Positions 7,615 through 52,150 of a stretch of DNA of 64,000 nt are shown here, in pieces. Source of the DNA: Bacillota bacterium (GTDB lineage Bacteria; Bacillota_C; Negativicutes; CTSoil-072); assembly GCA_017861495.1 (NCBI GenBank), contig JAGFXW010000001.1, forward strand, positions 14,934 through 78,933, written 5' to 3'. Positions within the stretch are counted from its first letter, which is position 1; the number at the start of each line of letters is the position of its first letter. Under the pieces are notes generated by a model. That model was not told the DNA's origin. It saw nothing but the letters and a program-made list of their open reading frames with translations, and searched no databases. The position numbers and the translations under genes are program-made.

Positions 7615-7619
7615 ATTGT

Positions 7620-24827: not shown

Positions 24828-24848
24828 AACAATTCATCCGGTTCTTGC

Positions 24849-24882
24849 ATAGTCGGCGGGTTTTCCCGCCGACTATTTTTTT
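24849..24882. terminator. Bidirectional terminator between the RTX gene and rmlB
   Basis: A perfect 12-bp stem (ATAGTCGGCGGG with CCCGCCGACTAT) with a TTTT loop is followed by T7 on the plus strand. It serves the RTX gene and probably also the end of the converging EPS operon. Confidence 0.9.
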
Positions 24883-24900
24883 GTCTTGCAGGAAATACAG

Positions 24901-26825: not shown

Positions 26826-26848
26826 CTTTTCCCCACCTTCCTTTTTGC

Positions 26849-27952: not shown

Positions 27953-28004
27953 TTGAAAATTCCTCCCCTCTTGCGTTCTGGGATCCCGGTCATGAAACTG
28001 CGGG

Positions 28005-29480: not shown

Positions 29481-29502
29481 TGTGATTTTCCTTTTTTGGC
29501 TT

Positions 29503-30462: not shown

Positions 30463-30505
30463 TTTTTCCACCCCTTGACCTTGACGTACGCGTATTCCCG
30501 CTCGC

Positions 30506-32717: not shown

Positions 32718-32828
32718 TTCACTAAGCCCCCTGACTTTCTTTGTCAGAGACACACCAGGATATCTTTACCGTATTTTGATCTGTCTTTGCCTGTATTTCG
32801 TGTATCTCTTGCTTTGTGGCAATACTAT

Positions 32829-33896
32829 TCATGAATACTCGATCATTTCGGCAACTTGCATTTTCCCAATCGTCATCAGCATAGCCGCCCAGTTAAGGCC
32901 GGTTCCAAATCCACAAAAACATACCTTAAAGGAACCGTTCTTCAACTGCTCTCCCAAATTATATACGGTATTTACCGGAATTGTGGCTCCGCTGGAATTG
33001 CCAAACCGCTCCACAATATTGGCCGGCATTTTTGCGTAAGGAACCCTCAATTGATCCGCCAATTTCTCAAGCATAAACCGGTTTGGCTGATGGAACAGGT
33101 AGTAATCGATTTCTTCCTTCGCGCTGCCACTGGTAACCAATAAATCTTCAATAAGGGCCGGAACCTTGGTTTGAACAAAATTGAATACGCCGGTTCCATC
33201 CATAAACAGATTATCCTTGCTGCGCAGATTGCCATCCCCGTTGTCTTCCATAATTGCAGTTTCCGTGGTTGACGGCAGCCGCAAACCACCCGCCGGAATA
33301 ATCAGCGCTTCGGCCTGGCTTCCATCCATTTTGACATTCGCATGGATCACATTCGGGATGCAATCCTTCTCAACAATCGTGATCGCCGCGGCATCGCCGA
33401 TAATCGGGTAGCTGTTGCGGTCCTTCCGGGAAGTTCTGTGGCTTAGAAACTCTGCATTCAGGAGGATTACTTTGTTGATACTCTCCTGTTCCAACAGCAT
33501 AAATGCCTGGGTCAGCCCGACGACGTAGCCGGCACAACCCTGATTAATGTCCAGGCAAATAACGTCTTCCCGCAATCCGAGCCTTCCCTGGATGATGTTG
33601 CTGGTCGGTGGAAGCAGATAGTCAGCAGTTTGCGTCACCAGAATGATTGCATCAATATCTTCTTTCTTTACAATCCCCTGTCCCAATAAATATTCCATAC
33701 CGAAGACGCAATAATCGGAAATACAGTCTCCCTCTTCCGCAATCCGATGCCGGTCGTAACCCATAATTTTTTTCAAGCGCAGCGACTTTTCCGGCGGGAA
33801 GTTGTAATTGCCGATCTCATCGTCAAACAGGCTTTCCTTTTTGGGAACTACGCACAAAATCCCGCTTATTTTTTTATTGTGAAAATTCATGTTCAT
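32829..33896 (-). CDS. 3-oxoacyl-ACP synthase III (KAS III)-like enzyme
   Basis: A 355-residue thiolase-fold condensing enzyme. ATG 33896 overlaps the stop of the upstream carrier-protein gene (ATGA). The full catalytic triad is visible: Cys in INQGCAGYVVG, His in YLFHQPNRFM and Asn in ERFGNSSGATIP, with C-terminal GFGTGLNW. It probably condenses an acyl group with malonyl-carrier, or transfers an acyl group between carriers. In EPS and flagellin glycan islands, KAS III and ACP genes make short acyl groups (such as 3-hydroxybutyryl) that decorate amino sugars. That role is inferred from context; the enzyme family is secure. Confidence 0.9.
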   Translation of the reverse strand: MNMNFHNKKISGILCVVPKKESLFDDEIGNYNFPPEKSLRLKKIMGYDRHRIAEEGDCISDYCVFGMEYLLGQGIVKKEDIDAIILVTQTADYLLPPTSNIIQGRLGLREDVICLDINQGCAGYVVGLTQAFMLLEQESINKVILLNAEFLSHRTSRKDRNSYPIIGDAAAITIVEKDCIPNVIHANVKMDGSQAEALIIPAGGLRLPSTTETAIMEDNGDGNLRSKDNLFMDGTGVFNFVQTKVPALIEDLLVTSGSAKEEIDYYLFHQPNRFMLEKLADQLRVPYAKMPANIVERFGNSSGATIPVNTVYNLGEQLKNGSFKVCFCGFGTGLNWAAMLMTIGKMQVAEMIEYS

Positions 33897-34123
33897 ACAT
33901 TCCCACCATACCTTTCCACCAACCGTCTGATTGAATCTGTGTCCGAAAAGTTTTCCGGAATGATATCTGTGCCGCAAATTTTAATTCCATAGCGTTCTTC
34001 CAAAGTAGATACCAGCACGACCATGTCAAATGAGTCGAGAACGCCGTTCTCTATAAAATTACTTTCCTGGTAAAAATCAAATTCCGGCCTGATCCCCGTA
34101 AGTATTTTAATGATCTCTTCCAT
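33893..34123 (-). CDS. Acyl carrier protein (cassette copy 1)
   Basis: A 76-residue four-helix carrier protein. The phosphopantetheine site is the Ser in NGVLDSFDMVVLV near residue 31, in the usual L-D-S-hydrophobic context. The rest is acidic and helical and of standard ACP length. It is translationally coupled to the KAS III gene by a 4-bp overlap and lies 51 bp after the adenylating-enzyme gene. It is distinct from a housekeeping fatty-acid ACP (DSLD core) and is probably dedicated to this cassette. Confidence 0.87.
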   Translation of the reverse strand: MEEIIKILTGIRPEFDFYQESNFIENGVLDSFDMVVLVSTLEERYGIKICGTDIIPENFSDTDSIRRLVERYGGNV

Positions 34124-34174
34124 TGCGATCCCTCACAATCGTTGCAAAATCGGCGAACGCCTCTCCTGCTCCAT

Positions 34175-35701
34175 CTATTGTCCGTAACGGTGAAACAACG
34201 CCACCCGGTCGATTTTTCCATTGGCGTTCAACGGCATTTCTTCCAGCTGGTGAGCCGTCGTAGGCAGCATATATTTCGGCAATAACGGCAGCAGGGCTTT
34301 TCGGATATCGCCTATTTCAGTCGGTTGAGACGCCTTATAGAGCAATACGATCTCTTCCCGGGCCTTGTTATAGGTTACGCAGGCACTCTCGATGACCGGC
34401 AGACCGGCAACCACAGTTTCAATTTCTCCAAGTTCTATGCGATAGCCCATGTGTTTAATTTGCGAATCTTTGCGGCCAACAAAAATGATTTCGTTCCGCT
34501 CATTGATATAAACCAGGTCACCGGTTCTGTATATCTTGTCCGGGTAATGGTCGTGCAGGGGATTTTGTACGAACGCAGCCGCCGTTTTCTCCGGATCATC
34601 CCAATACCCGAGCGCCAACGAACTGCCCCGGACACACAATTCGCCGACTTCCAGCAGTCCCGCCTGTTTATTTTCTGCGGTGAGGACCAATATATCCGTA
34701 TTCCGGCAGGGAAAACCGATCGGCAAAGAGTCCTGGTCCGAAAATTCCCGTTCCACAATATAGTAAGTACAATCCACCGTAATCTCGGTAGGTCCGTAAA
34801 GATTGGCAAACAGCGCTGTCGGCATTTTTTTGCGCCAATAATTCAACTGCTTATTCGGCATAACTTCCCCGGCAAAGAGGATTTTAGCCAGCCGGGACGG
34901 CATAATTTCATCAAGAATCTGCGCATTGGCTACGTTGATCAATACTGACGGCACCCAAAATACAAAGTTAATACCCATATCGTTTACATACGTCATCAGC
35001 TTTGCAGGGAAAGAGAACAGCATTTTGGGAATAATAACAAGTGTGGCGCCGGCCCCGAAACACAGGTAAATATCCAGCGTGGAATTATCAAAGAAGAAGG
35101 GAGACTGACTGCCAATAACAGTTTGTTCGTCAATCCCGAAGCATCCTATGGCCCAATCGATATAATCGACAACTCCCCGGTGAGCGACTACAACGCCTTT
35201 TGGCGTTCCGGTAGACCCGGATGTGTAAATAACATACACAGGGTCCACGTCAATCACTTGCCCGATAATTTGATCCAGGAAATGCTCTTCTTCCCCGGAC
35301 AGTTCTTCATACTGGGTTCCCGCCAATACGCATTTTGATGCTTCGACGCCCAAGGAAGCCAAAAGTCCGGTATATTCCGGCGAGGTGACAATCGCTGCTG
35401 GTTTCAAATTGGCTAAAATTTTCCCCAATCTTTGTTCTGGGAGTTTTTCATCCAACGGTACATAGAAATTACCACTATAAAGGATGCCCGCAAAGGCAAT
35501 GATACTATCGACGCTTTTGGGCAATAACACCGCGACTGGCCGACGAAAGGAAGCGTGATCTTTTGCCAATTTCAAAGCAAGCTGTCTGCCGAACTGCCGC
35601 AATTGGCCAAACGTTAGCCGGCGAGCGCCATCCACAATGGCTGGTTTGTCGCCAAACCGGCGGACAGTTTCCTCCAAGTATTCCAGGACGCTATTCTTCA
35701 C
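34175..35701 (-). CDS. Amino-acid adenylating enzyme, DltA/NRPS-A type
   Basis: A 508-residue ANL-family enzyme that activates a carboxylic or amino acid as adenylate and loads it on a carrier protein. GTG 35701 has GGGAGGG upstream. Core motifs are complete: A3 VIYTSGSTGTPKG, A5 NLYGPTEITVDCTYY, A7 YRTGD, A8 GRKDSQIKHMGYRIELGEIE (exactly 20), and A10 Lys in NANGKIDR. It most resembles D-alanine-activating DltA and stand-alone NRPS A domains. The Asp anchoring an amino group appears as FFFDNSTLD. It lies between two carrier-protein genes. The substrate is unknown. Confidence 0.9.
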   Translation of the reverse strand: MKNSVLEYLEETVRRFGDKPAIVDGARRLTFGQLRQFGRQLALKLAKDHASFRRPVAVLLPKSVDSIIAFAGILYSGNFYVPLDEKLPEQRLGKILANLKPAAIVTSPEYTGLLASLGVEASKCVLAGTQYEELSGEEEHFLDQIIGQVIDVDPVYVIYTSGSTGTPKGVVVAHRGVVDYIDWAIGCFGIDEQTVIGSQSPFFFDNSTLDIYLCFGAGATLVIIPKMLFSFPAKLMTYVNDMGINFVFWVPSVLINVANAQILDEIMPSRLAKILFAGEVMPNKQLNYWRKKMPTALFANLYGPTEITVDCTYYIVEREFSDQDSLPIGFPCRNTDILVLTAENKQAGLLEVGELCVRGSSLALGYWDDPEKTAAAFVQNPLHDHYPDKIYRTGDLVYINERNEIIFVGRKDSQIKHMGYRIELGEIETVVAGLPVIESACVTYNKAREEIVLLYKASQPTEIGDIRKALLPLLPKYMLPTTAHQLEEMPLNANGKIDRVALFHRYGQ

Positions 35702-35774
35702 GTTGGAACCCTCCCCCCAACATCGTCCGGAAATTCACGCAGCCTAAAGAGATCAAGGTTCCGGACGCATTTCC

Positions 35775-36044
35775 TTAGCAAACCCGTAAAGAATGTTTGG
35801 GTTCTTCCTCCTCCTCCTCCAGCTTATCCTCGACAAAATTGACAATATCCTCTACCGAAGCGCATTGTTTTAACTTCGAAGTTTCCACCGTCAGGCCAAA
35901 AGTTTCATGGAACAGAGCGGCAATACTCAACCGCCCCAGCGAATCCCATCCATCAAGGCCGTCCAGTTCTGTTGACAACGTTAATGTTCCCGCCGGTTCA
36001 AACAATGCTTCTTCCAATTTCCCCAGCAATTCTTGTTGTTTCAC
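35775..36044 (-). CDS. Acyl/peptidyl carrier protein (cassette copy 2)
   Basis: A carrier protein of about 89 residues. GTG 36044 has GGAGGGG 5 nt upstream; earlier ATGs overlap that site. The phosphopantetheine Ser lies in LDGWDSLGRLSIAALF near residue 40, a context closer to acyl carriers of modular pathways than to the ACP at 33893. The C-terminus is a Glu-rich stretch (EDKLEEEEEEP). It precedes the adenylating-enzyme gene and follows an acyltransferase gene, so it may receive the adenylated acid. Confidence 0.82.
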   Translation of the reverse strand: MKQQELLGKLEEALFEPAGTLTLSTELDGLDGWDSLGRLSIAALFHETFGLTVETSKLKQCASVEDIVNFVEDKLEEEEEEPKHSLRVC

Positions 36045-36072
36045 ACCGATCCCCTCCATCAACGTTTATTTT

Positions 36073-36705
36073 TTATTCAATTCTCCGGGCCGGATTGCCA
36101 AATACGCTGACGTTCGCCGGAACATCCCGGATAACGACGCTGCCCACTCCAATTTTGGCTCCTTTGCCAATCCTCTTTCCGGGAATAATGCGAACCCCGC
36201 CTCCCAAAAACGCCTGTTCCTCCAAATAAACATGTCCCGTCAAATCGCAATGATCACTGATGCTGCAGCCTTGTTCCACCGTTACGTCATGCCCGACAAC
36301 CGTAAACGAATCGACTAACGTATAATCCCCTATAAAGGAGTTGGGACAGACGACCACTTGCGGACAAAGAATGACCCCTTCGCCAATGGTGGTATAGTCG
36401 GCAATAATAACGGAAGGATGAATAATGCTGACAAACTTGGCTCCTTTTTCTTTCAGGGCTTTGCAGATCCGCATTTTATTCGCCGGATCGGCAATCGCGC
36501 AAACAAATTCCTCGTCGGCTTCCGGTTCATGGTCCTTGATCGGTCCCACCACCAGGTTCGATAACTGATACTTATCCAACGCCTGGAGATCATCATTCAA
36601 AAAGCCGACCGACTCCCACCGTTTTTGCACATTTTGAATGTCCTTGACCCATTCAAAGGTTTCTCGACCGCAATGTCCGGCGCCAATGATCAGCAATTTG
36701 CTCAT
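36073..36705 (-). CDS. PglD/NeuD-family sugar N-acyltransferase (1)
   Basis: A 210-residue enzyme. ATG 36705 has AAGGAGATG upstream; a longer frame overlapping the BKACE gene is rejected. The N-terminal Rossmann-like part (LLIIGAGHCGRETFEWV) binds the nucleotide sugar. The C-terminal left-handed beta-helix of hexapeptide repeats (SIIHPSVIIADYTTIGEGVI, exactly 20, then VVVCPNSFIG) binds acyl-CoA; the catalytic His is likely in VVGHDVTV. Family members acetylate or acylate amino sugars such as UDP-4-amino sugars or dTDP-viosamine. A second, diverged family member lies at 37609. Confidence 0.9.
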   Translation of the reverse strand: MSKLLIIGAGHCGRETFEWVKDIQNVQKRWESVGFLNDDLQALDKYQLSNLVVGPIKDHEPEADEEFVCAIADPANKMRICKALKEKGAKFVSIIHPSVIIADYTTIGEGVILCPQVVVCPNSFIGDYTLVDSFTVVGHDVTVEQGCSISDHCDLTGHVYLEEQAFLGGGVRIIPGKRIGKGAKIGVGSVVIRDVPANVSVFGNPARRIE

Positions 36706-36778
36706 ACGTTCATCTCCTTCTCTTCCGCTTATTTTCACTCCACCCCGGGTTATGCCGCACCCAGCTTTCCAAGGTATG

Positions 36779-37612
36779 CTATCGATAGCATTTGAGCATA
36801 TCCCGCACTTGGCGGGGAGTTGCAATCGGCCGGTTTAATTCCCTGGCAATCCGGCACACCCGTTCCACCAGGCCATAATTCGTAGAAAACACAGCACGAT
36901 CATCATCCATCCAAAGATTATCCTCCAGGCCGGTGCGGACTCCATCAGCGGCCACGAGACCTAAACAATTGGCAACCAGCTGTGAATTTCCGATGCCGGC
37001 AACAGAACAGATCGAGTCCGGGGGGAATTCCGACATGATCGTTGCCAGATGAAACAGTTTCGCTTGCGCCGACGCTACATTGCCCAGCAAAATATTAAAG
37101 TAATAGGGAGCAGGGATATTTTTTTTCTGGATAAGATAGTTTGCATAATTTACCATTCCCAAGTCAAATACTTCGAATTCCGGAAGTATTCCTTTTTCCA
37201 GCATTTTTTCAACCAGGCTTTCAATGATTACAGGGCTGTTAACACTCGCCTGTTTCGGAAAATTCAATGAGCTTAATGTCAGACTTGCCATATCCGGGCG
37301 GCAGTCGCCATCCAATTCCAATACTTCCGACCGTTTTTCAAATTCGGGGATATTCCGGCCGCTGGTGGTAACCACGATGATAACCTCGGAATTCACAGTC
37401 CGGATTCCCTCAATAATGCGGGCAGAGACCTCTTTGCGATGGGTAGGGATGCCATCTTCGTCGCGGGCGTGGAGATGAACCATTGATACGCCAAGTGGAA
37501 TACAACGACAAACGTCTTCGATAATTTCTTCCGGCGTAAGCGGGACATAGGGGGTATCTTTCCGCGTCGGCACCATTCCAGTCGGAGCTAAATTAATGAT
37601 TAACGGTTTCAA
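36779..37612 (-). CDS. Beta-keto acid cleavage enzyme (BKACE, DUF849)
   Basis: A 277-residue TIM-barrel enzyme of the BKACE family, which exchanges acyl groups between a beta-keto acid and acetyl-CoA, giving an acyl-CoA and acetoacetate. TTG 37612 has GGAGGGG upstream and overlaps the preceding gene by 4 bp. Visible signatures: NLAPTGMVPTR, the Zn site MVHLHARDEDG, EFEVFDLGMV and GVRTGLEDNLW. Best known in lysine fermentation (Kce). Inside an EPS operon it is unusual; it may supply an unusual acyl-CoA to the adjacent sugar acyltransferases. That link is inference from overlap and order. Confidence 0.88.
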   Translation of the reverse strand: MKPLIINLAPTGMVPTRKDTPYVPLTPEEIIEDVCRCIPLGVSMVHLHARDEDGIPTHRKEVSARIIEGIRTVNSEVIIVVTTSGRNIPEFEKRSEVLELDGDCRPDMASLTLSSLNFPKQASVNSPVIIESLVEKMLEKGILPEFEVFDLGMVNYANYLIQKKNIPAPYYFNILLGNVASAQAKLFHLATIMSEFPPDSICSVAGIGNSQLVANCLGLVAADGVRTGLEDNLWMDDDRAVFSTNYGLVERVCRIARELNRPIATPRQVRDMLKCYR

Positions 37613-38259
37613 CTGGTTTCCCCTCCCTTCAACGACATTTCCCGGGCCGGAACCCCGGCGACCGTGACATGCGGCATGACATTTCGGGTTACGACAGAAC
37701 CGGCTCCCACAACTGCCCCTGCGCCGACTTCACGCCGCAGCATAACCGTCGCGCCGGCGCCAATGAATGCTCCCTGCCGTAAAACCGTCTCTCCGCCAAT
37801 GGTAGCTCCGGGTCCCACAAAAACATAATCTTCGACGGTAACATCATGGCTTAGCAATACCCGCAACCGAAGGGTTACAAAATTGCCGATTGCAACGTTG
37901 CTGCCAATCACACAACCATCCGGGATCACACAGCCAATGCCGGTTGTAACATAATTCATATCGATACCGGGATGTATCAAACCCGCAATGCGGCAACCAC
38001 GATTCAGCAGCATTTCCGCAACCGCCTGTTTGTTGCGGGGGCCATGCACATTATTCACGAAATAAACGCCCTCCCGGTTTAACTCAGGAATGCGGTCCCG
38101 GGTTCCCAAGACCGTGTATCCCAAAAAGGTTTTTCCCTGTAATTCCGGAGTATCATCAATAAAACCCAACAAATTCCATGTAGGTTCATGTCGATTAATC
38201 GCATCAATTAACTTGATATAATCAAAATACGCTGCGCCGAAAAAAACCAACGGTTTCAT
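37609..38259 (-). CDS. PglD/NeuD-family sugar N-acyltransferase (2)
   Basis: A 216-residue acyltransferase with an N-terminal nucleotide-sugar binding part (LVFFGAAYFDYIKLIDAI, in place of the usual GAGGHG loop) and a C-terminal hexapeptide-repeat beta-helix (IHPGIDMNYVTTGIGCVI, VIGSNVAIGNFVTL, VGPGATIGGETVL). The catalytic His is probably in LLSHDVTVEDYV. The altered N-terminal loop (GAAYFDY) differs from paralogue 1 and may change sugar choice. It is the first gene of the acyl cassette after the GalNAcA genes and is coupled to the BKACE gene by a 4-bp overlap. Confidence 0.88.
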   Translation of the reverse strand: MKPLVFFGAAYFDYIKLIDAINRHEPTWNLLGFIDDTPELQGKTFLGYTVLGTRDRIPELNREGVYFVNNVHGPRNKQAVAEMLLNRGCRIAGLIHPGIDMNYVTTGIGCVIPDGCVIGSNVAIGNFVTLRLRVLLSHDVTVEDYVFVGPGATIGGETVLRQGAFIGAGATVMLRREVGAGAVVGAGSVVTRNVMPHVTVAGVPAREMSLKGGETS

Positions 38260-38333
38260 TGGATCACCCCTTTCTGAATTAACGGGAGAACGATGCGGAC
38301 ACTCGCTTATTCGCTTCCTTACAAAACATACGA

Positions 38334-39410
38334 CTACTTCCGGTGGTTAACATACCATACAGTCGCTTCCGCCAGCCCCTCGCGCGTTGAATGGGAGGGT
38401 GAATAGCCGAGCAGAATCCTCGCTTTGTCGATATTCGCCAGAGAGTGCCGGACATCACCGGCGCGAAAATCCCGGTATTGTGGTTTTACTCCACTGCCGG
38501 ACGGCAAATAAGCGGCAACCTGCTCACGGATGAGCTCAAACAATTGATTAAGAGTTATCCTTTCGCCGCAGGCAACATTGTAGATTTGCCGCAAAGCGGC
38601 CGTATTCTCTGTGCATCCGGCAAGCAAATTTGCCTGCACCACATTGTCAACATAACAGAAATCCCGGCTCGTTTCTCCATCGCCGTTAATGTACACCGTT
38701 TCACCCCGCAGTAAGCTGAAAACCCATTTGGGTATCACAGCCGCATAAGCGCCTTCCGGATCCTGCCTGCGTCCAAAGACATTGAAGTAACGAAGCCCGA
38801 CACAATCCAGGCTATAGTTAAGACCAAATACTCCGGCATACAGCTCGTTCACCGTTTTTGTCACCGCATACGGGGAAAGCGGTTTGCCAATTTCCGCTTC
38901 CACCTTTGGCAACCCGGGGTGGTCGCCGTACACCGAACTGGAAGAAGCGTATACGAAGCGTTTAATTTTGGCCATCTTGGCCGCCACCAGCATATTCAAA
39001 TAACCATCAACATTGCTGCGGTTGGTGGAAATCGGGTCTGCCAGGGAACGGGGCACCGATCCTAATGCAGCCTGGTGAAGAACAATATCGACGCCTTCAC
39101 AACATGACCGGCAAGTATTCAGATCGCAAATATCGCCTTCAATAAACGAAAACCGTTCTGCCTGCGCCGCATCAACACTAGAAAGGACTTCCACGATATT
39201 ACGTTGATGGCCGGTAGAAAAATTATCCAACCCAACCACCGTCTGATCCAGCATGAGAAGGGTTTCCACTAAGTTTGAGCCGATAAAACCGGCTGCTCCG
39301 GTAATCAACCAGGTGCGCGGTTTCTCCCGCAACGTTTCACATAGTTCTTTACAAGCTCCAGTAAACAACCGCCGATGGGAAATCACTTCTTTTGAATGTT
39401 GATTTGACAT
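38334..39410 (-). CDS. tviC: UDP-GlcNAc(A) C4-epimerase, WbpP/TviC type
   Basis: A 358-residue extended short-chain dehydrogenase. It matches WbpP/TviC strongly from residue 33 on: [19 protein letters not shown] (19), [55 protein letters not shown] (Tyr-x3-Lys) and [16 protein letters not shown]. These enzymes interconvert UDP-GlcNAc/UDP-GalNAc or their uronic acids. Together with the adjacent dehydrogenase it makes UDP-GalNAcA, as in Vi antigen synthesis. The start overlaps that gene by 62 bp; no better internal ATG exists, although TTG near residue 15 is possible. Confidence 0.93.
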
Positions 39411-40632
39411 CCACGATCACACCCTCACCGTTATGTAATTTGGCAAGCAATCCTTCAACACCGTCTTTCAGGTATCTATCATGCGCAACGGCCAAAACAA
39501 TGGCGTCCAAATCCTGCAATTCCTCGTCGGTGCAAAGCTTTACGCCATACTCTTCCCACGTTTCCTGCGGGTCCGCCAGTGGGTCATGAACCTGCGCCTG
39601 AATTCCATAGGCGCGCAGCTCCTGAAGAATATTGGCAACCCGGCTGTTGCGAATATCCGGTACATTTTCCTTAAACGTCAATCCCATTACCGCCACCTTG
39701 GCGGAGCAAAGGTTTTGCTTCGCAGTAATCATCGCTTTTACAGTTTGTCCGGCAACATACTCTCCCATATGGTCATTAATACGGCGCCCAGCCAAAATCA
39801 CTTGCGGGTTATAACCCACTTCTTCAGCCTTGTATGCGAGATAATAAGGATCTACCCCAATACAATGTCCGCCAACCAGGCCCGGCTTGAAAGGCAGAAA
39901 ATTCCACTTTGTTCCTGCCGCTTCCAGAACAGCGTCAGTGGGGATTTTCAACATATTAAAAATTATGGCCAGTTCGTTAACCAGCGCAATATTCAAATCC
40001 CGTTGCGTATTCTCAATGACTTTTGCCGCTTCCGCGACTTTAATGCTTTCCGCCCTGTATACCCCGGCATCAATAATTGCTCCATACACTTCTGCAATCG
40101 TATTCAAGGTTTCCTCATCTTCACCCGAAACCACTTTTACAATTGTCTCCAATCGGTGAACCTTGTCCCCGGGATTGATCCGCTCCGGCGAATAACCGAG
40201 TTTGAAATCCTTGCCGCGTTTTAGGCCGGAAGACTGTTCCAGCACCGGGCCGCATATATCTTCTGTCACTCCCGGATAAACCGTTGATTCATAAACTACA
40301 ATAGCGCCGGGCTGCATTACGCTGCCCACGATTTGCGAAGCCTTGATTAATGCCGACATCAGCGGGCGGTTCGCTTTGCCGATGGGTGTCGGTACGGCAA
40401 CGACAAAAAAGTTGGTTCCTATCAATGCGTTGGGATCCGCCGTGATCTGTAACGTTGTTGTTTTTAGCGCATCTTCCGTTAATTCTTTTGTATTATCAAA
40501 ACCTGACTGCAATTTTTCTATTTTCTTTTGTTGGACATCAAAGCCAACCACATTGGCAAATTTATTGGCAAACGCAATCGCTAACGGCAATCCCACATAG
40601 CCGAGTCCGATAACCCCTATTTTGCGCTCCAC
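39349..40632 (-). CDS. tviB: UDP-N-acetylhexosamine 6-dehydrogenase, TviB/WbpO type
   Basis: A 427-residue nucleotide-sugar dehydrogenase that oxidises UDP-GlcNAc or UDP-GalNAc to the uronic acid in two NAD-dependent steps. N-terminal Rossmann [27 protein letters not shown], the catalytic Cys in [17 protein letters not shown] and the C-terminal [13 protein letters not shown] segment are complete. The match to TviB/WbpO (PDIRNS, NPGDK) is better than to UDP-glucose dehydrogenase. It pairs with the TviC-type epimerase downstream, so the EPS very likely contains GalNAcA. Confidence 0.95.
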
Positions 40633-40674
40633 AATACCTACCTCCTTTTCATCGAACTATGAATGGAATGATGA

Positions 40675-41835
40675 TTATGAGTTCGGCCAATGAACGGCAA
40701 CCGGTTCATACAAAACCATTTTGTATACTTCGCAGTATCTCGCAGCGATTGCCTTCATGTCAAAATTGCTTTGAATTCTCCGGCGGGCATTATTCCCTAA
40801 TCTTTCCCTACCCTCCGTTCCGGCTTCAATCAATTTTGTCCATCCATTCGCCAATGCAAGCGCATTTTGCGCCGGCACTACCACTCCGGTTTCACCCACA
40901 ATCAGTGAGGAATCCCCTGTATCTGTAACAACACACGGTATACCGCAGGCCATTGCCTCGCCAACCACATTGGGAAACGCTTCGCCAAGGGATGAAAGTG
41001 TCGCTATATCGAGTGCTGTTAGTATTTTCGGCACATCATTTCTCAGCCCGAGAAGGTGTATTTTGTTTTCAATCTCCGCCTGTTCGATCCAACCAATCAG
41101 CGTTGCATTTTGTTCATTGATATCACCGCCGCAAAGGAGAAATTCCGCATTGCGATATTTCTTTGCCACTATCCCTGCTGCCTGGACAAAGTTGTGATGG
41201 TCTTTTTGCGGATCGAAGCGGGCAACCATTCCAATCAAGATGGTTTCTTGTTCTATGCCTAGGCTTTTCCGCACCTCATCGCGCGCTTTCTTATCCGGAT
41301 AAAATATATCCAGTTCAAACCCGTTGGGAATAATGATGATTTTTTTGGGGTCATAGCCAATCAGTTGATGCGTCTCTTTCGCCTCGTGGGAACAACAAAT
41401 AATCCGGCTTGGTAAATAACGGGATAGATACCCGCAAAGTTTGGCGACTTTGACCGTTACGGGATTATTGTAACGGGGATCCAGATTGCTGTGCCGTATG
41501 CCCCATATTACCGGTGTTCGGGGGGCAGCCAACATGGCCGCCAACGACCCTAAAACATCTGCATGATACATCCAAGTTTGAATAATATCCGGTTTGATTT
41601 TGCGGATGAGATGAGCCAAATACAGGATCTTTGAGGGACTGATCTTTCCCCTTTTCATATCCACAGCCCAAACATCCACGCCGAGCGATCGTATTTTTCC
41701 ACCTACTTCAGAGATGTCTGTCAGGGAGATTACGGTCGCATCCAAATGAGCCAGGTCGCTATTGGCCAATAATTTGTACAACATCCCCGGGGCTCCGCCG
41801 GTATCGAGACTGCTGATGATATGTAGTATCTTCAC
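40675..41835 (-). CDS. Family GT4 glycosyltransferase in the EPS operon
   Basis: A 386-residue GT-B enzyme. GTG 41835 (GGAGGG 6 nt upstream) is chosen over an ATG inside the polymerase gene because it begins exactly at the usual VKILHIISSLDTGGAPGML strand. The C-terminal donor domain carries GMVARFDPQKDHHNF and SSLGEAFPNVVGEAMACG (E-x7-E). It would add a sugar to the lipid-linked EPS unit. It lies between the polymerase-like gene and the GalNAcA dehydrogenase gene, so it may transfer GalNAcA, although this is only positional. Confidence 0.9.
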   Translation of the reverse strand: MKILHIISSLDTGGAPGMLYKLLANSDLAHLDATVISLTDISEVGGKIRSLGVDVWAVDMKRGKISPSKILYLAHLIRKIKPDIIQTWMYHADVLGSLAAMLAAPRTPVIWGIRHSNLDPRYNNPVTVKVAKLCGYLSRYLPSRIICCSHEAKETHQLIGYDPKKIIIIPNGFELDIFYPDKKARDEVRKSLGIEQETILIGMVARFDPQKDHHNFVQAAGIVAKKYRNAEFLLCGGDINEQNATLIGWIEQAEIENKIHLLGLRNDVPKILTALDIATLSSLGEAFPNVVGEAMACGIPCVVTDTGDSSLIVGETGVVVPAQNALALANGWTKLIEAGTEGRERLGNNARRRIQSNFDMKAIAARYCEVYKMVLYEPVAVHWPNS

Positions 41836-41875
41836 GGCTTTCCCTCCTACTGCGGTGAATGTGAAGCCAACAGGT

Positions 41876-43186
41876 TCATTCTTTTTTTTCAGCGGCAAAT
41901 ACATTTCCGGCTACGGCCCGCGTGGTCAAAATCGACAATAACAGCAGGATCGGTCGTTCCTCCAACAGATGGTGGCTTATAAATCCATATGCGATTAGCA
42001 ATATAACGATAGCGACTCCGCTGAAATTTTTCATTTTTTTGTTGAGAAATAGAATGGCCAGCAGCCACCAAACATAAGACAATACGCCGAATATGCCATT
42101 TTCAACCCATCGCGCCACATATATATTATGCGGGCCCAACCACATGGAAGTGACATATCCCGACCCTTTTCCCCATAGCGGACTGCTGGCAATCAACGGA
42201 TAATATTCGTCAAGGATTCTCACTCTCGCATCCGATGTTGATAAAGCGCCGCCAACATCTCCGGTAAACCATTCCATGCGCGCAGACTTAAATTGAAGAA
42301 TTTCAAGCTGGCTGAGATAGTCCGGCAGCAGGAAAACAATGACGCCTCCCAGACAGATCAACAAACCAGCCCCTTTTATAAAGAATGAGACGCGTTCTTT
42401 ATTTTTTAAATTGATCAAGTACAACAAAGCGATCAGCAGGAACTCAACAACGCCACCGCGGGAAAAAGTGAAAAATATGCCGACGCCGCAGACAACGGCC
42501 AAAATCATATCCTGCCAATTTAAGGCTTTCTTTTCCCAGCGCAATAACACAGTGAGAAACAGTACCATACTGAATGCGGCAATATTTGGCTGTTCATAAA
42601 TTCCCGACGCCCGGTAGTCCAGTTTGGAAAAGGTCCCCGGATACAGGGCATCGACAAAAACGGTGACTATCACAACAAGAAAGGCTATGGCAACGGTCGT
42701 CGACCATTTCCATTTACTGATGTGCATCATTCCGATCGCTACGCCCGTCAAAAAAAGCAGAAAATCGAGAGTAGGAAGCAGCACGGCTTTATAATTTTGA
42801 TCAAAATAAGCCTCTTCCAAAAAGATACCTACCCAGCTAAATCCCACTATCGCCGCAAAAGGAATAATGATCGGCAGCGACCTTGTAAAAATCAAAGCAT
42901 ACTGCCCTTCAAAATAAGTGGAAACCACACTTAATATCCATATGGAGCCAATCCAGGCTACCAATAATATGATGGGGGATATGGGCAGCATTCCCATTTG
43001 AAAAAGGTAACTGTCCAGTCGCAGCAGAAAAAACAGTAACGTGGACAGAATGTATGTATCGCGCAGGAGTAAAAATAATCTCGCAAAAATATTTTCCTGC
43101 CCTGTGCCAACCGTAAACCCTTGCAAAGGAACCAGCGCTTTATCAGCCACCGATTTCACCCCCTGATCGGAATATTTCCAAGTCAT
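41876..43186 (-). CDS. O-antigen ligase/polymerase-like membrane protein (Wzy)
   Basis: A 436-residue integral membrane protein with about 12 predicted helices and the large periplasmic loop near residues 280-340 typical of Wzy_C proteins (VRILDEYYPLIASSPLWGKGS, containing the family GxGSGY-like motif, then LGPHNIYVARWVENG with the conserved HNIYV-type His). It is expected to polymerise EPS repeat units in the periplasm. ATG 43186 overlaps the dehydratase stop (ATGA). Ligase versus polymerase cannot be separated by sequence; the Wzx/Wzz context favours polymerase. Confidence 0.88.
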   Translation of the reverse strand: MTWKYSDQGVKSVADKALVPLQGFTVGTGQENIFARLFLLLRDTYILSTLLFFLLRLDSYLFQMGMLPISPIILLVAWIGSIWILSVVSTYFEGQYALIFTRSLPIIIPFAAIVGFSWVGIFLEEAYFDQNYKAVLLPTLDFLLFLTGVAIGMMHISKWKWSTTVAIAFLVVIVTVFVDALYPGTFSKLDYRASGIYEQPNIAAFSMVLFLTVLLRWEKKALNWQDMILAVVCGVGIFFTFSRGGVVEFLLIALLYLINLKNKERVSFFIKGAGLLICLGGVIVFLLPDYLSQLEILQFKSARMEWFTGDVGGALSTSDARVRILDEYYPLIASSPLWGKGSGYVTSMWLGPHNIYVARWVENGIFGVLSYVWWLLAILFLNKKMKNFSGVAIVILLIAYGFISHHLLEERPILLLLSILTTRAVAGNVFAAEKKE

Positions 43187-45087
43187 CCTCTTTCATGCTT
43201 GCCATCGTATTCAGTCATTCTCTCCGTTTCCGCAGACGCAGGCGCTTCATTACAGCCGCCGGTCCGGCGATGGTTCGGCAACCCTCGGACAAAGGTGGGA
43301 ATTAATTTACATAAGATGCTGCTGATTTTCTCCGGTTCATCTGTCGCCCGGAGCATGGTCAAGCCATCATTCAGTTTTTGCGGATCCACCGCTCTCAGAT
43401 TGGCGACATAAATTTTTTCATGTTTTGTCGAATTGCTTCCCTCTTCGGCCGTGAGGATCTCTTCGAACAATTTTTCTCCCGGCCGCAGGCCGGTGAATTC
43501 AATTTTAATGTCCTTGTACGGAACAAGGCCAGTCAATTCGATCAGATCACAAGCCATATCAAGAATGCGAATGGGCTTGCCCATATCCAGAATAAATACT
43601 TCTCCGCCCTGCGCCATCGCGCCGGCCTGCAACACCAATTGAGCCGCCTCCGGAATGGTCATGAAATAGCGTTGCATATCGGGGTGGGTAATGGTAACCG
43701 GACCCCCTCTGACAATTTGTTTGCGAAATAACGGGATCACGCTTCCCCTGCTGCCCAGCACGTTGCCGAACCGCACAGCCATAAATTTATTTTGGGGTTT
43801 CGTATTCATGCCGCAGATGATCATTTCCGCTACCCGTTTGGTGGCGCCCATAATGCTGGTTGGATTGACCGCCTTGTCTGTAGAAATCATTACAAATCTC
43901 TCGACATCTGCCTTTACAGCCGCTTCAGCCACAACTTTGGTGCCAAAAATATTATTTTTAACCGCTTCATCCGGCTGGGTTTCCATCAAGGGTACGTGCT
44001 TGTGGGCGGCTGCATGAAAAACCACCTGAGGATAAAATCTGGCGAAAATTGTATTGATCCGTTTTTCATCGCAAACATTGGCAATGATTGCTTCCGTTCG
44101 AAGTTTTGGATAATCCCACTGCAATTCACGCTGGATATCACAAATATTATTCTCGCTTTTCCCAAGCAGGATCAACTGCCGGGGAGCCATTTTCGCGATT
44201 TGGCGGCATAATTCCGATCCGATTGACCCTCCCGCCCCCGTGACAAGAATGCGCTTATCCGCCAAATACTTCGAAACAAGCGATGTATCGAGCCTCACCG
44301 GATCGCGGCGCAGTAAATCTTCCAAATTAACATCGCGCAATTGACGCATGGTGACCATTCCATCGAGAATTTCATAAACAGCCGGAACGACTTTTACACT
44401 GCACTTTGTTTGCCTGCACACCTGAACAATTTCCCGTACCAAGGTCCCATTTGCCGAAGGAATGGCGATAATGATCTCCTGGACATGGTGCTGCGCAACA
44501 AGCGGGTGGATTGCGTCCCTGTTGCCAAGGACTTTTTCGCCCAACAAAAAATGTCCGATTTTTGCCGGGTCGTCGTCGATAAAGCCAATGATTTTTTTGC
44601 TGCTGCCATAATGATCTTTGATTTCTTTGGCGATAGAAGCGCCAACATCACCGGCGCCAACGATTAATACGTTGCTACACTGTTTATAGCGTTTGCGGTG
44701 CCAGTGATATACAAGACGCACGCAAATACGGCTTAGTCCAATACAAGCTATGTTAAGGATTCCGCTCAATAAGAACATGCTTCTCGGCAGGATAATTCCC
44801 ATGCCGTAGGCAATAATTGCCAGCATAACCGACCCCAGCGTTACGGAGCCCACTATACTGAACAATTCGTTTATACCGGCGTAACGCCACAGTCGCCGGT
44901 ACAAGCGGAACAGATACAGCAGGATCATTTGAACCACGACAACAACCGGAACAAAGTCAACCAACGTAGCATAGAATGAAGGTTCAATGTTCCCTTCAAA
45001 TCGTATATATAACGCAACGAACGGTGTCAACGCCACGATCGCAGCATCGGTAATCATCAGCGCGCTACACAAGATTAAATATCGCAT
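43183..45087 (-). CDS. Membrane-bound nucleotide-sugar 4,6-dehydratase (CapD/WbpM/PglF type)
   Basis: A 634-residue protein: four N-terminal membrane helices, a first Rossmann-like region (LIVGAGDVGASIA near residue 140) and a catalytic SDR domain from about 275 (LVTGAGGSIGSELCRQI). ISTDKAVNPTSIMGATKR carries the Met-x3-Lys that replaces Tyr-x3-Lys in this family, and RFGNVLGSRGSVIP follows. Members convert UDP-GlcNAc to the 4-keto-6-deoxy sugar, the first step to bacillosamine, FucNAc or QuiNAc. Length is full for the CapD/WbpM group. It lies directly downstream of the tyrosine kinase gene, a common EPS order. Confidence 0.94.
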   Translation of the reverse strand: MRYLILCSALMITDAAIVALTPFVALYIRFEGNIEPSFYATLVDFVPVVVVVQMILLYLFRLYRRLWRYAGINELFSIVGSVTLGSVMLAIIAYGMGIILPRSMFLLSGILNIACIGLSRICVRLVYHWHRKRYKQCSNVLIVGAGDVGASIAKEIKDHYGSSKKIIGFIDDDPAKIGHFLLGEKVLGNRDAIHPLVAQHHVQEIIIAIPSANGTLVREIVQVCRQTKCSVKVVPAVYEILDGMVTMRQLRDVNLEDLLRRDPVRLDTSLVSKYLADKRILVTGAGGSIGSELCRQIAKMAPRQLILLGKSENNICDIQRELQWDYPKLRTEAIIANVCDEKRINTIFARFYPQVVFHAAAHKHVPLMETQPDEAVKNNIFGTKVVAEAAVKADVERFVMISTDKAVNPTSIMGATKRVAEMIICGMNTKPQNKFMAVRFGNVLGSRGSVIPLFRKQIVRGGPVTITHPDMQRYFMTIPEAAQLVLQAGAMAQGGEVFILDMGKPIRILDMACDLIELTGLVPYKDIKIEFTGLRPGEKLFEEILTAEEGSNSTKHEKIYVANLRAVDPQKLNDGLTMLRATDEPEKISSILCKLIPTFVRGLPNHRRTGGCNEAPASAETERMTEYDGKHERG

Positions 45088-45110
45088 GTTAAACGCCCCT
45101 TATATGCTAT

Positions 45111-45800
45111 TTACCGCGCTTTTTGCTGAGCTGTCCGGTAATAGTAGGAAGAATAGACTTCCTCATCCGCATCATCTACCCGGTTCATGATTACGCCAAG
45201 AATATTTGCTTTTGCCTTGATCAGTCTGTTTTTGGCTTTTTGGGCGTCGTCAGGACGCACGGATCCGGAATCCATAATAAGAGCTACACCATCCACCCTC
45301 CCCGCCAGAATAAGGGCGTCAGTCACTGCCAAAATGGGCGGCGTATCGATAAGAATCACCGTTGCCTCATTTTTTAATGTTTCAAAAATCTTATAAAGTC
45401 TGGTAGCCGCAAGCAATTCGGCAGGATTTTTGCTGTGCGAACCACTGGCTACCAGGTACAAATTGGGGATGTCCGTCTTTTGTATTGCGTCCTCAATGCT
45501 CATCGTACCCAACAGTATATCGGTAATTCCTACGTTTTGGACCCCAAAGATCGTATGTTGCACCGGTTTACGCAAATCACAATCCAGAATGATTACTTTT
45601 TTGCCGGATTGGGCAATCGATATCGCTGTATTTGCCACCGTCAGGGACTTCCCCTCATCGGAACCGGTGCTGGTAAACAAGATGGTCTTCATATCGCCGT
45701 CATCCTGCGATAATTGAATATAGGTACGCAAACCGCGAAATGCTTCAGCTGCAGGCGATTGCGCCCGGTCACGGATCATAAGCTTATCTTCTCGCATCAT
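45111..45800 (-). CDS. Bacterial tyrosine kinase (CapB/EpsD/Wzc cytoplasmic type)
   Basis: A 229-residue BY-kinase that controls EPS polymerisation with the adjacent Wzz-like activator. ATG 45800 has GGAG 8 nt upstream. Motifs: RDRAQSPAAEAFRGLRTYI (19), Walker A FTSTGSDEGKSLT, Walker A' VIILDCDLRKP and Walker B ATVILIDTPP. The C-terminal tyrosine cluster is VYSSYYYRTAQQ (four Tyr) for autophosphorylation. Kinase and membrane activator are separate proteins, as in Firmicutes, although the host seems diderm. No matching phosphatase gene is visible. Confidence 0.94.
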   Translation of the reverse strand: MMREDKLMIRDRAQSPAAEAFRGLRTYIQLSQDDGDMKTILFTSTGSDEGKSLTVANTAISIAQSGKKVIILDCDLRKPVQHTIFGVQNVGITDILLGTMSIEDAIQKTDIPNLYLVASGSHSKNPAELLAATRLYKIFETLKNEATVILIDTPPILAVTDALILAGRVDGVALIMDSGSVRPDDAQKAKNRLIKAKANILGVIMNRVDDADEEVYSSYYYRTAQQKAR

Positions 45801-45833
45801 CCATCTCACTCCATTCGTTTTCTTCTTCCCGAA

Positions 45834-47234
45834 TTATTTTTTTGTGCGTTTGGCAGAGCCATACGTCGGGATGCTGGCAATTACCGGCAAATCAAGATAT
45901 CGTCTCACATCCTCGGCAGTATCAATCGTACGGCGAACACTGCTGAGCACAACGGCTATTCCTGTTCCGAACAGCAATCCCAGCAGTGAAGCAACGATCA
46001 CATTCAAGGCTTTTGCCGGTTTGATGGGATTTAACGGAGCGCTTGCCATATCTACAATCTGGACATCCGTCGATTGCATTACCTCGCTGATCTTGGCTTC
46101 TTCATAACGTCTGGCCAGCATGGTGTACACTTCCTGCGCCACTGAAGCATCCCGCATCACCCTTGCCAGGCCTTGTTCCTTTGCAGGAAGAGCAACCAGT
46201 TCTTTTTCACTGTCTGCCAAAATTCGGGCGATCGTTTCCTGCTGGGCATTGGTGGCAGCCATTTCCGCCTGGGCCTGTATTTTGTTCTGCAGCAACATTT
46301 GATGGACCGGATTCATGGATGGCGCTTCCGACTTGACCACTTTGCCAATTTCCGATGTTAATCCGGCTTTGGTTTCTTCGACGGCCGCCTTTGCAGTCAC
46401 TACCCTGGGGTGCATTTCATTATATCTGCTCAGGAGAGTGGCGAGTTCAATCTGCTGATCGGCCAATCTTGCCTTATACTGCTGTATCAGCGCGTTGTCA
46501 GCAACCATTCCCACATCTTCGCCCGCCAATTCCCGGTTTGCATTGGCAACCCTCGCCTGGGCGGAAGCCAGCGCAACCTTGTTTTGCGCGGACAACTGAT
46601 TCACAGCCGTTTGCCATTGGATCAGGGAAGCGCTTTTGTCCGATAATGATGTCATTTTTTCCTGCTGCTTATACGAAGCTACTGCCTGTTCCGCTTTTTC
46701 GAGATCCTGTTTCGCCGTTCCCAGACGGTCGCCAATGAACGTCTTGACATCTTTCTGTTCTGAACGAACCAGGGAAGTAAGCCGTTCAATGAAGGTGGTC
46801 ATTACCAAATTGGTAAGCTTTTGTGCTTCTTCCGGATCGTCTGCCTGCACTTTCACGCTGAGAAGTTCCGTTTCTTTCACGGCTTGCGTGTTAATGCGTT
46901 TCAACATCACGTCATACGTCGGTTTTTCATTGTCGGCAAAACCGGCTTTTTCAATAACCCCCTCTACTACACCCCGACTTTTGATGATATCGGCATACGT
47001 CGCCATCAATTGTTTGCTCGTATCCGTTCCGGTTTGCCGATTATTCAATAATACGGTTTCCGCTCCTCCCGATTGATGAATACGCAGCGTCGCTTCCGCC
47101 TGGTAAGTCGGCGTCATGATGTAGCTCAGCACCGCCGCAATTACACCGGCAAAGAAGAAACAATTAAAAATAAGCCATTTGTATTTTTTTAGAACTCGTA
47201 GTTTATCTTGAACCTCATAACTTTTCTCTCCCAT
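45834..47234 (-). CDS. Wzz/GNVR-type polysaccharide co-polymerase
   Basis: A 466-residue chain-length regulator and kinase activator. ATG 47234 has GGGGTG upstream; a longer frame crossing the wza-like gene is rejected. There is a first membrane helix near residues 20-40 (WLIFNCFFFAGVIAAVLSY), then the Wzz fold (TYQAEATLRIHQSG), and a long periplasmic coiled coil (about 160-370) with GNVR-like SRYNEMHPRVVTAK. A second helix near 400-430 follows the PxxP-like segment ASAPLNPIKPAKALN. The cytoplasmic tail ends in basic residues that would contact the BY-kinase. It lies 33 bp before the kinase gene. Confidence 0.93.
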   Translation of the reverse strand: MGEKSYEVQDKLRVLKKYKWLIFNCFFFAGVIAAVLSYIMTPTYQAEATLRIHQSGGAETVLLNNRQTGTDTSKQLMATYADIIKSRGVVEGVIEKAGFADNEKPTYDVMLKRINTQAVKETELLSVKVQADDPEEAQKLTNLVMTTFIERLTSLVRSEQKDVKTFIGDRLGTAKQDLEKAEQAVASYKQQEKMTSLSDKSASLIQWQTAVNQLSAQNKVALASAQARVANANRELAGEDVGMVADNALIQQYKARLADQQIELATLLSRYNEMHPRVVTAKAAVEETKAGLTSEIGKVVKSEAPSMNPVHQMLLQNKIQAQAEMAATNAQQETIARILADSEKELVALPAKEQGLARVMRDASVAQEVYTMLARRYEEAKISEVMQSTDVQIVDMASAPLNPIKPAKALNVIVASLLGLLFGTGIAVVLSSVRRTIDTAEDVRRYLDLPVIASIPTYGSAKRTKK

Positions 47235-47250
47235 GACGTCACCCCGCTCA

Positions 47251-47892
47251 TTAATTATTATTATCGAAATTGCTGATATAATAGGCAGATGAGATGATTG
47301 GAGCGATGTCACGCCCCCAATCCAAACGTCCATTGGTATCCAGGAACAAGATGTCTCCATTGTTCAACGGGTAATTCTGAGTCATGTCGCCCTTTTTCAC
47401 GATGTTTAGCAGGTTCACTATAATTGGTTCTGTGTTTTTTTGCCCATTGCGGATCAAATAGACTTTCTTTTTGGCGGTGTCTTTCGTCCAACTGCCCGCG
47501 GCGGCAATGGCATCGATTACATTGTGCGAGTTTTGCAGTTCCACGATACCGGGTCGATTGATTTCACCCAGTACATATACCCGTGTCGAGTGAAACTGGG
47601 CAATATTGACTGAAACCCGTGGGTTCTTCACATAGGGTACCAATTGTTCCGTCATAACCCGTGACAACTCCGAAGGAGTCCGTCCCACAACCTGGACCTC
47701 ACCGAGTAAGGGAAAGTCGATTTTTCCATCCGGCCGGACAATGATTTGGGCAATTTGCATCTCTTCCAGCCCAAAAACATTAATGGCCAGCACGTCGCCC
47801 TCCGCAATCACATACCCGCCGGCAATGGCTGGACAGGCATTTGCCGCTAAAATCATCGCCATAACAATGAGTCCCAAACAAATTTTTTTCAT
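47251..47892 (-). CDS. Polysaccharide export protein, Wza/SLBB family
   Basis: A 213-residue secreted protein. The signal peptide is KKICLGLIVMAMILAANACP; a weak lipobox ANAC makes lipidation possible. The Poly_export domain (YVIAEGDVLAINVFG, VRPDGKIDFPLLGEVQVVG) is followed by one SLBB domain (VYVLGEINRPGIVELQ) and NGDILFLD. It is shorter than E. coli Wza (about 380) and lacks its C-terminal transmembrane helix domain, so another protein may complete the outer-membrane pore. It is the first gene of the EPS operon, behind two tandem c-di-GMP-II riboswitches. Confidence 0.9.
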   Translation of the reverse strand: MKKICLGLIVMAMILAANACPAIAGGYVIAEGDVLAINVFGLEEMQIAQIIVRPDGKIDFPLLGEVQVVGRTPSELSRVMTEQLVPYVKNPRVSVNIAQFHSTRVYVLGEINRPGIVELQNSHNVIDAIAAAGSWTKDTAKKKVYLIRNGQKNTEPIIVNLLNIVKKGDMTQNYPLNNGDILFLDTNGRLDWGRDIAPIISSAYYISNFDNNN

Positions 47893-48033: not shown

Positions 48034-48068
48034 CAAAAAACCACCCCAGCACAAATACAGGGGTGGTT
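48034..48068 (-). terminator. Terminator of the proximal EPS riboswitch
   Basis: On the minus strand AACCACCCC pairs with GGGGTGGTT around a 13-nt loop, followed by TTTTG. The 5' arm contains the 3' strand of aptamer P1 (CCACC), so aptamer and terminator exclude each other. Confidence 0.88.
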
Positions 48069-48131
48069 TCACTACTTGCTCCACATAAAACAAGTGACCA
48101 CATACGTTTTATGTTTCAACGCATCTCCACC
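48062..48131 (-). promoter_or_regulatory. c-di-GMP-II riboswitch, EPS proximal copy
   Basis: Minus-strand core GGTCACTTG ... GGAGCAAGTAGTGAAACC. P1 is GGTGG (48131-48127) with CCACC (48066-48062). P2 is ACATAAAAC with GTTTTATGT. The pseudoknot pairs TCACT (48097-48093) with AGTGA (48073-48069). It is homologous to the tad copy and to the distal copy 80 bp upstream, with compensatory changes in P1 and P2. Ligand binding should stabilise P1 and let transcription proceed. Confidence 0.88.
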
Positions 48132-48190
48132 AGATCGTTATTTGATTAAAAGATCAAATAAGATTTGAGGATGATCAGAAGTTCCTGAGA

Positions 48191-48218
48191 CCAAAAATCG
48201 CCCCGGGAAGACAGGGCG
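48191..48218 (-). terminator. Terminator of the distal EPS riboswitch
   Basis: On the minus strand CGCCCTG pairs with CGGGGCG around a 6-nt loop, followed by ATTTTTGG. The 5' arm overlaps the P1 3' strand GCCCTG of the distal aptamer. Confidence 0.82.
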
Positions 48219-48290
48219 GTTTCACTACTCGCTCCACATAAAACAAGTGACCACATATGTTTTATGCTTCAACGCGTCTCTCCTGCCCCG
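48212..48290 (-). promoter_or_regulatory. c-di-GMP-II riboswitch, EPS distal copy
   Basis: Minus-strand core GGTCACTTG ... GGAGCGAGTAGTGAAACC. P1 is CGGGGC (48290-48285) with GCCCTG (48217-48212), a pairing different in sequence from the other two copies. P2 is GCATAAAAC with GTTTTATGT, and the pseudoknot TCACT/AGTGA is kept. It lies about 40 nt after a predicted promoter, so it is first in the leader. With the proximal copy it forms a tandem arrangement. Confidence 0.87.
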
Positions 48291-48336
48291 CTTGGATATG
48301 CCAACCGACTGAACAGGATCACTTCTTAAGCATTAT

Positions 48337-48366
48337 TCTATATAGTTGATAATTTTGCCGTTTCAA
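48337..48366 (-). promoter_or_regulatory. EPS promoter P2, sigma-A type
   Basis: On the minus strand TTGAAA (48366-48361) and TATAGA (48342-48337) are 18 bp apart. The start point near 48330 lies about 40 nt before the distal riboswitch. The phased repeats at 48412-48450 lie 50-85 bp upstream of the -35 box, a normal place for an activator. Confidence 0.6.
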
Positions 48367-48410
48367 CGCAATTTTCTTATCTTTTTTTGGTGTAATGAAT
48401 ATCCGCCATT

Positions 48411-48450
48411 TTGGATGTTTGTTGACGTTTGTGGACATTCATTTGATGTT
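48411..48450 (+). repeat. Four phased direct repeats TKGAYGTTT upstream of the EPS genes
   Basis: TGGATGTTT, TTGACGTTT, TGGACATTC and TTGATGTTC follow one another with GA dinucleotides 10, 10 and 11 bp apart. They lie between promoters P1 and P2 of the EPS leader. The tad leader has a similar array at 7301-7340 on the minus strand. Confidence 0.55.
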
Positions 48451-48487: not shown

Positions 48488-48517
48488 ATTGTACTCCTTG
48501 CCAATCTCCCCTGTCAA
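48488..48517 (-). promoter_or_regulatory. EPS promoter P1, sigma-A type
   Basis: On the minus strand a perfect TTGACA (48517-48512) and TACAAT (48493-48488) are 18 bp apart. Transcription would start near 48480 and cross the phased repeats and both riboswitches. It lies only about 150 bp downstream of the secretion ABC gene stop. Confidence 0.65.
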
Positions 48518-50781: not shown

Positions 50782-50784
50782 ACG

Positions 50785-52143: not shown

Positions 52144-52150
52144 TTCAACC

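Follow-up and report, generated by a model that had tools for sequence, protein, structure and literature searches.

Are tandem riboswitches really independent of each other? The question is raised by the conserved linker between two c-di-GMP-II riboswitches that follow one another in the genome of a Bacillota bacterium. The pair lies on the minus strand of the 64,000-nucleotide stretch of DNA analysed here (the window), where the leader consists, in order, of a promoter-like site, about 200 nt, aptamer 1, terminator 1, a linker of about 58 nt, aptamer 2 and terminator 2, followed after 142 nt by the ATG of the first gene at 47892. The promoter-like site (48488..48517, minus strand; TTGACA-18-TACAAT) is a consensus match only, with 11 of 12 letters, and ranks first among 12 such sites in 2 kb, for which shuffled sequences gave a mean of 4.7.

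The first gene encodes a polysaccharide export protein (47251..47892, minus strand; Poly_export and SLBB, Pfam PF02563, E 3e-22), which we take to be of the Wza type and for which every NCBIfam match to the Poly_export product stays under its cut-off. It opens a 23.0-kb set of 21 same-strand ORFs (24901..47892, minus strand), mostly polysaccharide genes, with Pfam matches for all 21 and NCBIfam matches for seven. Represented are export, Wzz/GNVR, tyrosine autokinase, Polysacc_synt_2 dehydratase, Wzy_C, glycosyltransferases, UDP-sugar dehydrogenase, flippase and sugar-nucleotide enzymes, as well as AMP-binding, PP-binding, ketoacyl synthase III, BKACE, FemAB-like and beta-helix proteins. Matrix genes such as these are a usual target of c-di-GMP. 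It is plausible that the whole set forms one transcript. A terminator-like hairpin followed by T7 (38247-38262, minus strand), at the start of a hexapeptide-transferase gene, might be an internal stop; over 24800-44000, 29 terminator-like hairpins were found, not clearly above the 22.2 (sd 4.6) in shuffled sequences. Immediately upstream of the tandem, an HlyD adaptor stands between two ABC transporters that have C39-like domains (48670-54292, minus strand), a cluster that is possibly the type I exporter of the RTX protein encoded in this window. A PAS-GGDEF-EAL protein is encoded at 60936-63251 (minus strand), near the genes under putative c-di-GMP control.

Both aptamers were identified using cmscan against Rfam 15, in which the c-di-GMP-II family (RF01786) has a gathering score of 53.5. 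Unit 1 (48205..48288, minus strand) scores 62.6 bits (E 1.4e-11) and unit 2 (48052..48135, minus strand) 55.7 bits (E 1.2e-9), each over the full length of the model. The original prediction of two tandem c-di-GMP-II riboswitches is borne out by the Infernal search that it had proposed; both matches lie inside the range stated for it, 48034..48290. The aptamers are 69 nt apart, in a register of 153 nt, and the gap holds no ORF of at least 80 aa on either strand; 69 nt minus terminator 1 is too short for a gene; a published survey of tandem riboswitches left out gaps of more than 300 nt (PMC9481103). Two full units of the same class thus follow one another here without an intervening ORF. Tandem Repeats Finder reported no array at the tandem, as expected because the copies have diverged.

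Comparisons were extended to 58 elements, three from the window and 55 matches from genomes of the class, and the 26 that are exactly 84 nt long were compared column by column as ungapped sequences. Nineteen columns are at least 90% conserved among the 24 of these outside the window pair, and neither window copy departs at any of them, suggesting the same ligand for both units; judged by sequence, both would bind c-di-GMP. In both copies, the P3 loop forms all seven pseudoknot pairs with the 3' strand. Each of them is formed in 24 to 26 of the 26 elements, and at pair 39-67 both sides vary, with A-U in 13 elements, U-A in eight and G-C in three. Standard pairs make up all of P2 (3/3) and P3 (8/8) in both copies, and in the Rfam register 8/11 of P1 in unit 1 and 5/11 in unit 2, several of them G-U, with shifted registers possible.

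Within columns 12-73, five positions distinguish the two copies, namely columns 13, 22, 31, 59 and 72. At pair 13-59, where unit 1 has C-G and unit 2 has U-A both in the window and in the closest genome found, the MAG CTSoil_073 (G001; first gene 68% identical in protein), the difference is thus compensatory. The compensatory pair between the copies accordingly sits in P2 and not in P1, where such changes had been claimed. The two helices quoted for P1 lie in different registers and are not homologous: in model columns, CGGGGC/GCCCTG spans -1 to 4 and 72-77, and GGTGG/CCACC spans 5-9 and 70-74, the latter taking C70 and C71, the pseudoknot partners of the loop GG. The model columns thus rule out that the two represent one compensated helix.

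Each unit has its own intrinsic terminator, as foreseen, and hence its own expression platform. Terminator 1 (48193..48218, minus strand) consists of CGCCCUG...CGGGGCG followed by AUUUUU, the stem at 48218-48199 being succeeded by ATTTTT, and folds at -11.5 kcal/mol (z -3.5). Terminator 2 (48035..48070, minus strand) consists of GAAACCACCCC...GGGGUGGUUUU within a U6 run, its stem lying within 48070-48037 and running into T6 at 48040-48035, and folds at -20 kcal/mol (z -5.5). A simple terminator scan listed terminator 1 alone, a count of one that is no excess over the shuffle mean of 2.1.

In terminator 2, the 5' arm includes the AACC pseudoknot strand along with the beginning of P1. In unit 1 of the window, the terminator arm has one base in common with the pseudoknot strand and lies otherwise in P1, so that its switch would rest on P1, which in both copies is weak in the Rfam register; free folding of this unit adds an A/U-rich extension to the terminator arm. 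From this overlap, clear for the pseudoknot strand in unit 2 and confined largely to P1 in unit 1, c-di-GMP is predicted probably to turn transcription on, in agreement with the direction proposed at the outset. Using a script, an overlap of the predicted terminator arm with the pseudoknot strand or with P1 was found in 50 of the 58 elements, a raw count over elements many of which are orthologous to one another; 41 of these overlaps comprise at least three pseudoknot nucleotides and nine lie in P1 or comprise less of the pseudoknot. On inspection the overlap is also present in L165, missed by the regular expression, and in window unit 1, mis-picked by the script, and it is absent from the remaining six (L127, L131, L143, L148, L176 and L177).

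Folding with the pseudoknot bases held unpaired gave mixed results in the seven units of the lineage, that is the tandem units of the window (W1, W2) and of G001 (L146a, L146b), a third window element (W3) and its G001 counterpart (L162), and L141. An extended P1 replaces the terminator in L146a, W3 and L162, and part of the terminator stem stays in W1 (six of seven pairs), W2, L146b and L141. That four of the seven keep part of the stem counts against the explanation that we favour.

This explanation, to which we assign a probability of about 80%, is that two complete c-di-GMP-II transcriptional ON switches would operate in series and largely independently. While RNA polymerase moves off each aptamer, the 3' strand of P1 and, clearly in unit 2, the AACC pseudoknot strand would either be kept by the bound aptamer or pass into the terminator's 5' arm. 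With c-di-GMP bound, the base of the terminator beside the U-run would be kept from closing and transcription would continue; without ligand, the terminator would form. In the OFF state, the 5' strand of P1 may in addition be sequestered in each unit by an upstream hairpin. As the transcript would have to pass both gates, basal leak should multiply down and the response should become somewhat steeper.

The ideal product curve of two units that are identical and act independently gives an EC90/EC10 of 40 vs 81, or an effective Hill coefficient of 1.19, and with an assumed leak of 10% and a maximum of 80% the calculated range rises from 8-fold to 64-fold. Lower leak should thus be the larger gain, and the steepening modest. 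Of the 'sharper, AND-like' response originally predicted, the first half holds in this modest form, whereas the second does not: both units appear to have one ligand, for which reason two-input AND logic was rejected, and the published term is pseudo-cooperative. In the tandem survey, 59 doublets and nine triplets of c-di-GMP-II riboswitches are classed in this way, and the authors expect from them a steeper, more 'digital' curve (PMC9481103). As described there, these tandems resemble that of the window in comprising complete same-class units, with no ORF between, under multiple expression platforms (PMC9481103). They are, however, mostly found in Paraclostridium and its near relatives, where they precede a gene for a putative surface anchor (COG4932), whereas the window tandem belongs to Bacillota with Negativicutes-like kin and has a polysaccharide gene set as its target. 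A 2025 survey, for its part, reports c-di-GMP riboswitches to be significantly enriched in tandem arrangement (PMC12452182). Tandem c-di-GMP-II riboswitches are therefore already known as an arrangement, and the new details are the conserved linker and a predicted, statistically weak P1-holding hairpin; in the open-access literature we found no paper on a c-di-GMP-II tandem before polysaccharide genes in this lineage.

A related system is the triple-tandem riboswitch Bc3-5 of Bacillus thuringiensis, which likewise consists of serial transcriptional ON switches for c-di-GMP but differs in belonging to class I, with an unrelated aptamer fold, in its three copies and in its target genes (PMC4759541). 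According to the results given in that study, more copies lead to lower background, larger fold change and more digital curves. The double Bc4-5 has a background of 0.070 and a 28-fold change, compared with 0.342 and 11-fold and 0.168 and 13-fold for its single units, and the double Bc3-4 (0.356, 7-fold) outperforms Bc3 (0.98, 3-fold) but not Bc4 (PMC4759541).

The tandem recurs in G001, again with a register of 153 nt and in front of the ortholog of the first gene. Unit 1 (L001:9674-9757) and unit 2 (L001:9827-9910) of G001 score 60.5 and 60.8 bits, respectively, and its counterpart of terminator 1 folds at -16.7. In 90 kb of the G001 contig, tblastn matches were obtained for 41 of the 48 window ORFs; 19 of the 21 ORFs of the polysaccharide set are collinear, ORF 36779-37612 being unmatched in these 90 kb and 37609-38259 matching only at the place of a paralog. 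Window and G001 agree at 376 of 872 fourfold sites (43%), counted in five gene pairs chosen from the neighbourhood. By comparison, unit 2 with its terminator is identical over 96/96 nt, a stretch (48130-48035) that includes most of aptamer 2, whereas unit 1 with its terminator is identical over 78/98 columns and the linker over 50/58; the values are 121/224 for the 5' leader and 37/142 for the stretch after terminator 2. The promoter-like site is the same in 24 of 30 columns, both hexamers being identical. A leader hairpin (GAAUGUCC/GGAUAUUC; 48340-48445, minus strand; z of the stretch -3.0) is partly retained in G001, and has no match in Rfam at gathering.

Counted over alignment columns, the aptamers are identical at 73/86 between W1 and L146a, 80/84 between W2 and L146b, 70/86 between W1 and W2, and 72/85 between L146a and L146b. 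Together with the shared P2 difference, these values fit a duplication that preceded the divergence of the two genomes, with a small margin on the side of unit 1. A recent exchange of this segment could mimic purifying selection, the tandem being known from two genomes only; among the genomes searched, the order of G001 contains G001 alone.

The linker (48136..48193, minus strand), which starts on the final T of the terminator-1 tail, holds two predicted hairpins; in extended form, the second would pair with the 5' strand of P1 in unit 2. In the 5' flank and first bases of unit 1 (48281..48318, minus strand), UCCUGUUC (48318-48311) would pair with GGGCAGGA (48288-48281) according to folding; an AUCCUG block of this flank is retained in G001, and the single-sequence shuffle test (0.095) is not significant. 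Such features might indicate that the units are coupled, the conserved linker hairpin pairing with P1 of unit 2 and events at unit 1 setting the folding or pausing of unit 2. We regard this as unlikely, although several observations point to it: the conservation of the linker matches that of unit 1 and its terminator, upstream pairing of 8-10 of the first 12 aptamer nucleotides is predicted in W1, W2, L146a, L146b and L141, and the UAUUUG of the terminator-2 loop repeats the linker 5' strand and, by eye, could pair with the linker CAAAUA. Also by eye, linker pairs read CUA/UAG in G001 and UCA/UGG in the window, including a double change from U-A to C-G. On the other hand, the predicted pairing fraction is no better than with shuffled flanks in all seven lineage units (0.095 to 0.5 in the five units just named, 0.095 to 0.99 overall), and the hairpin is absent from W3 and L162, with 0/12 nucleotides paired. 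MFE z is -2.2 for W2 and L146b and -0.9 to -1.3 for W1, L146a and L141. Moreover, folds with the pseudoknot blocked show no loop-linker pairing in W2 and L146b, and an insulating hairpin accounts equally well for the conservation of the linker. As a class-wide feature the anti-P1 hairpin was rejected, 6 of the 58 elements falling below 0.05 where about three are expected. The anti-P1 linker hairpin may nonetheless serve as a lead, if a statistically weak one. In a further form, which we consider equally speculative, the tandem would be more than two independent switches, either because anti-P1 hairpins of linker and 5' flank, together with the repeat of the linker 5' strand in the wholly conserved loop of terminator 2, establish a four-strand exchange at each gate (sequester, P1, pseudoknot and terminator) through which unit 1 conditions unit 2, or because the invariant 96-nt unit 2 acts in trans after termination.

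Also unlikely is that unit 2 is the sole working gate and unit 1 a decaying duplicate with a weakened terminator. Terminator 1 is indeed the weaker of the two in the window, with AUUUUUGG as its tail and hardly any overlap with the pseudoknot, and of the 98 columns of unit 1 and its terminator 20 are changed relative to the G001 ortholog, compared with none of 96 for unit 2 and its terminator. However, unit 1 outscores unit 2 in Rfam and retains all 19 conserved columns, and its terminator is present in both genomes despite the change in sequence. It is very improbable that the two units form a two-input or two-threshold gate by responding to different ligands or to widely different levels of c-di-GMP: although they differ at the five columns given above, none of these is among the 19 conserved ones, columns 13 and 59 form the compensated P2 pair and column 22 leaves its P3 pair intact.

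At least 55 RF01786 matches were found in at least 32 of 380 class genomes, scoring the best 11 candidates per genome; one of them, L177 (G037), was not confirmed when its locus was rescanned. Among 54 class loci rescanned with about 1 kb upstream and 2 kb downstream (shorter for L145, L152 and L166, at contig ends), only G001 has a second copy close by. An alignment scan kept 80 loci of 573 relatives, and among the 16 scanned with Rfam (L001-L016) c-di-GMP-II occurs in L001 only; a viral scan gave no match. In two of these loci (L010 and L004; one of G001 itself, the other of Sporomusa acidovorans), Poly_export genes have a c-di-GMP-I riboswitch 1.2-1.7 kb upstream. The 3.3-Mb genome of G001 has 25 c-di-GMP-I and four c-di-GMP-II matches (one of the four below cut-off), with close class-I pairs at C23:297003/297356 and C8:15412/15984. 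In 20 of the 55 class matches, the N-terminus of the downstream ORF resembles by eye that of L136, a T2SSE protein with MshEN according to Pfam; three other downstream ORFs tested with Pfam are RTX (L128), ShlB (L148) and Poly_export (L124). The last of these, in G099, resembles the window in having a c-di-GMP-II riboswitch before a Poly_export gene (PF02563), but has one copy in 3 kb, and its predicted terminator overlaps P1 alone. The hits and the outer-membrane-type genes suggest that the kin of this lineage are diderm Negativicutes.

The window holds two further c-di-GMP riboswitches, both single. W3 (7536-7618, minus strand), a c-di-GMP-II element just at gathering (RF01786, 53.5 bits), precedes Tad pilus genes (CpaB/RcpC, secretin, ParA-like), and its G001 counterpart L162 lies at the matching place with 50.3 bits, below gathering. 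In W3, the 5' flank AUACAAAC and the GUUUGUAU of the terminator loop are complementary to each other, as are AAUACAAAC and GUUUGUAUU in G001; constrained folds pair flank and loop, possibly forming a long P1. A c-di-GMP-I riboswitch (23044-23132, plus strand; 58.5 bits in Rfam) lies upstream of an RTX/beta-helix protein gene and has a counterpart at the matching place in G001 (C23:135701-135788). The likely start codon of the RTX/beta-helix gene is at 23256, after a GGAGG site, and not the GTG at 23130.

With single riboswitches before Tad pilus and RTX/beta-helix genes, the adhesion and matrix programme of this organism seems to be wired to c-di-GMP through RNA. Within it, a tandem c-di-GMP-II gate would be placed on polysaccharide synthesis in a Bacillota lineage, with both copies and their spacer retained between genomes that agree at only 43% of fourfold sites.
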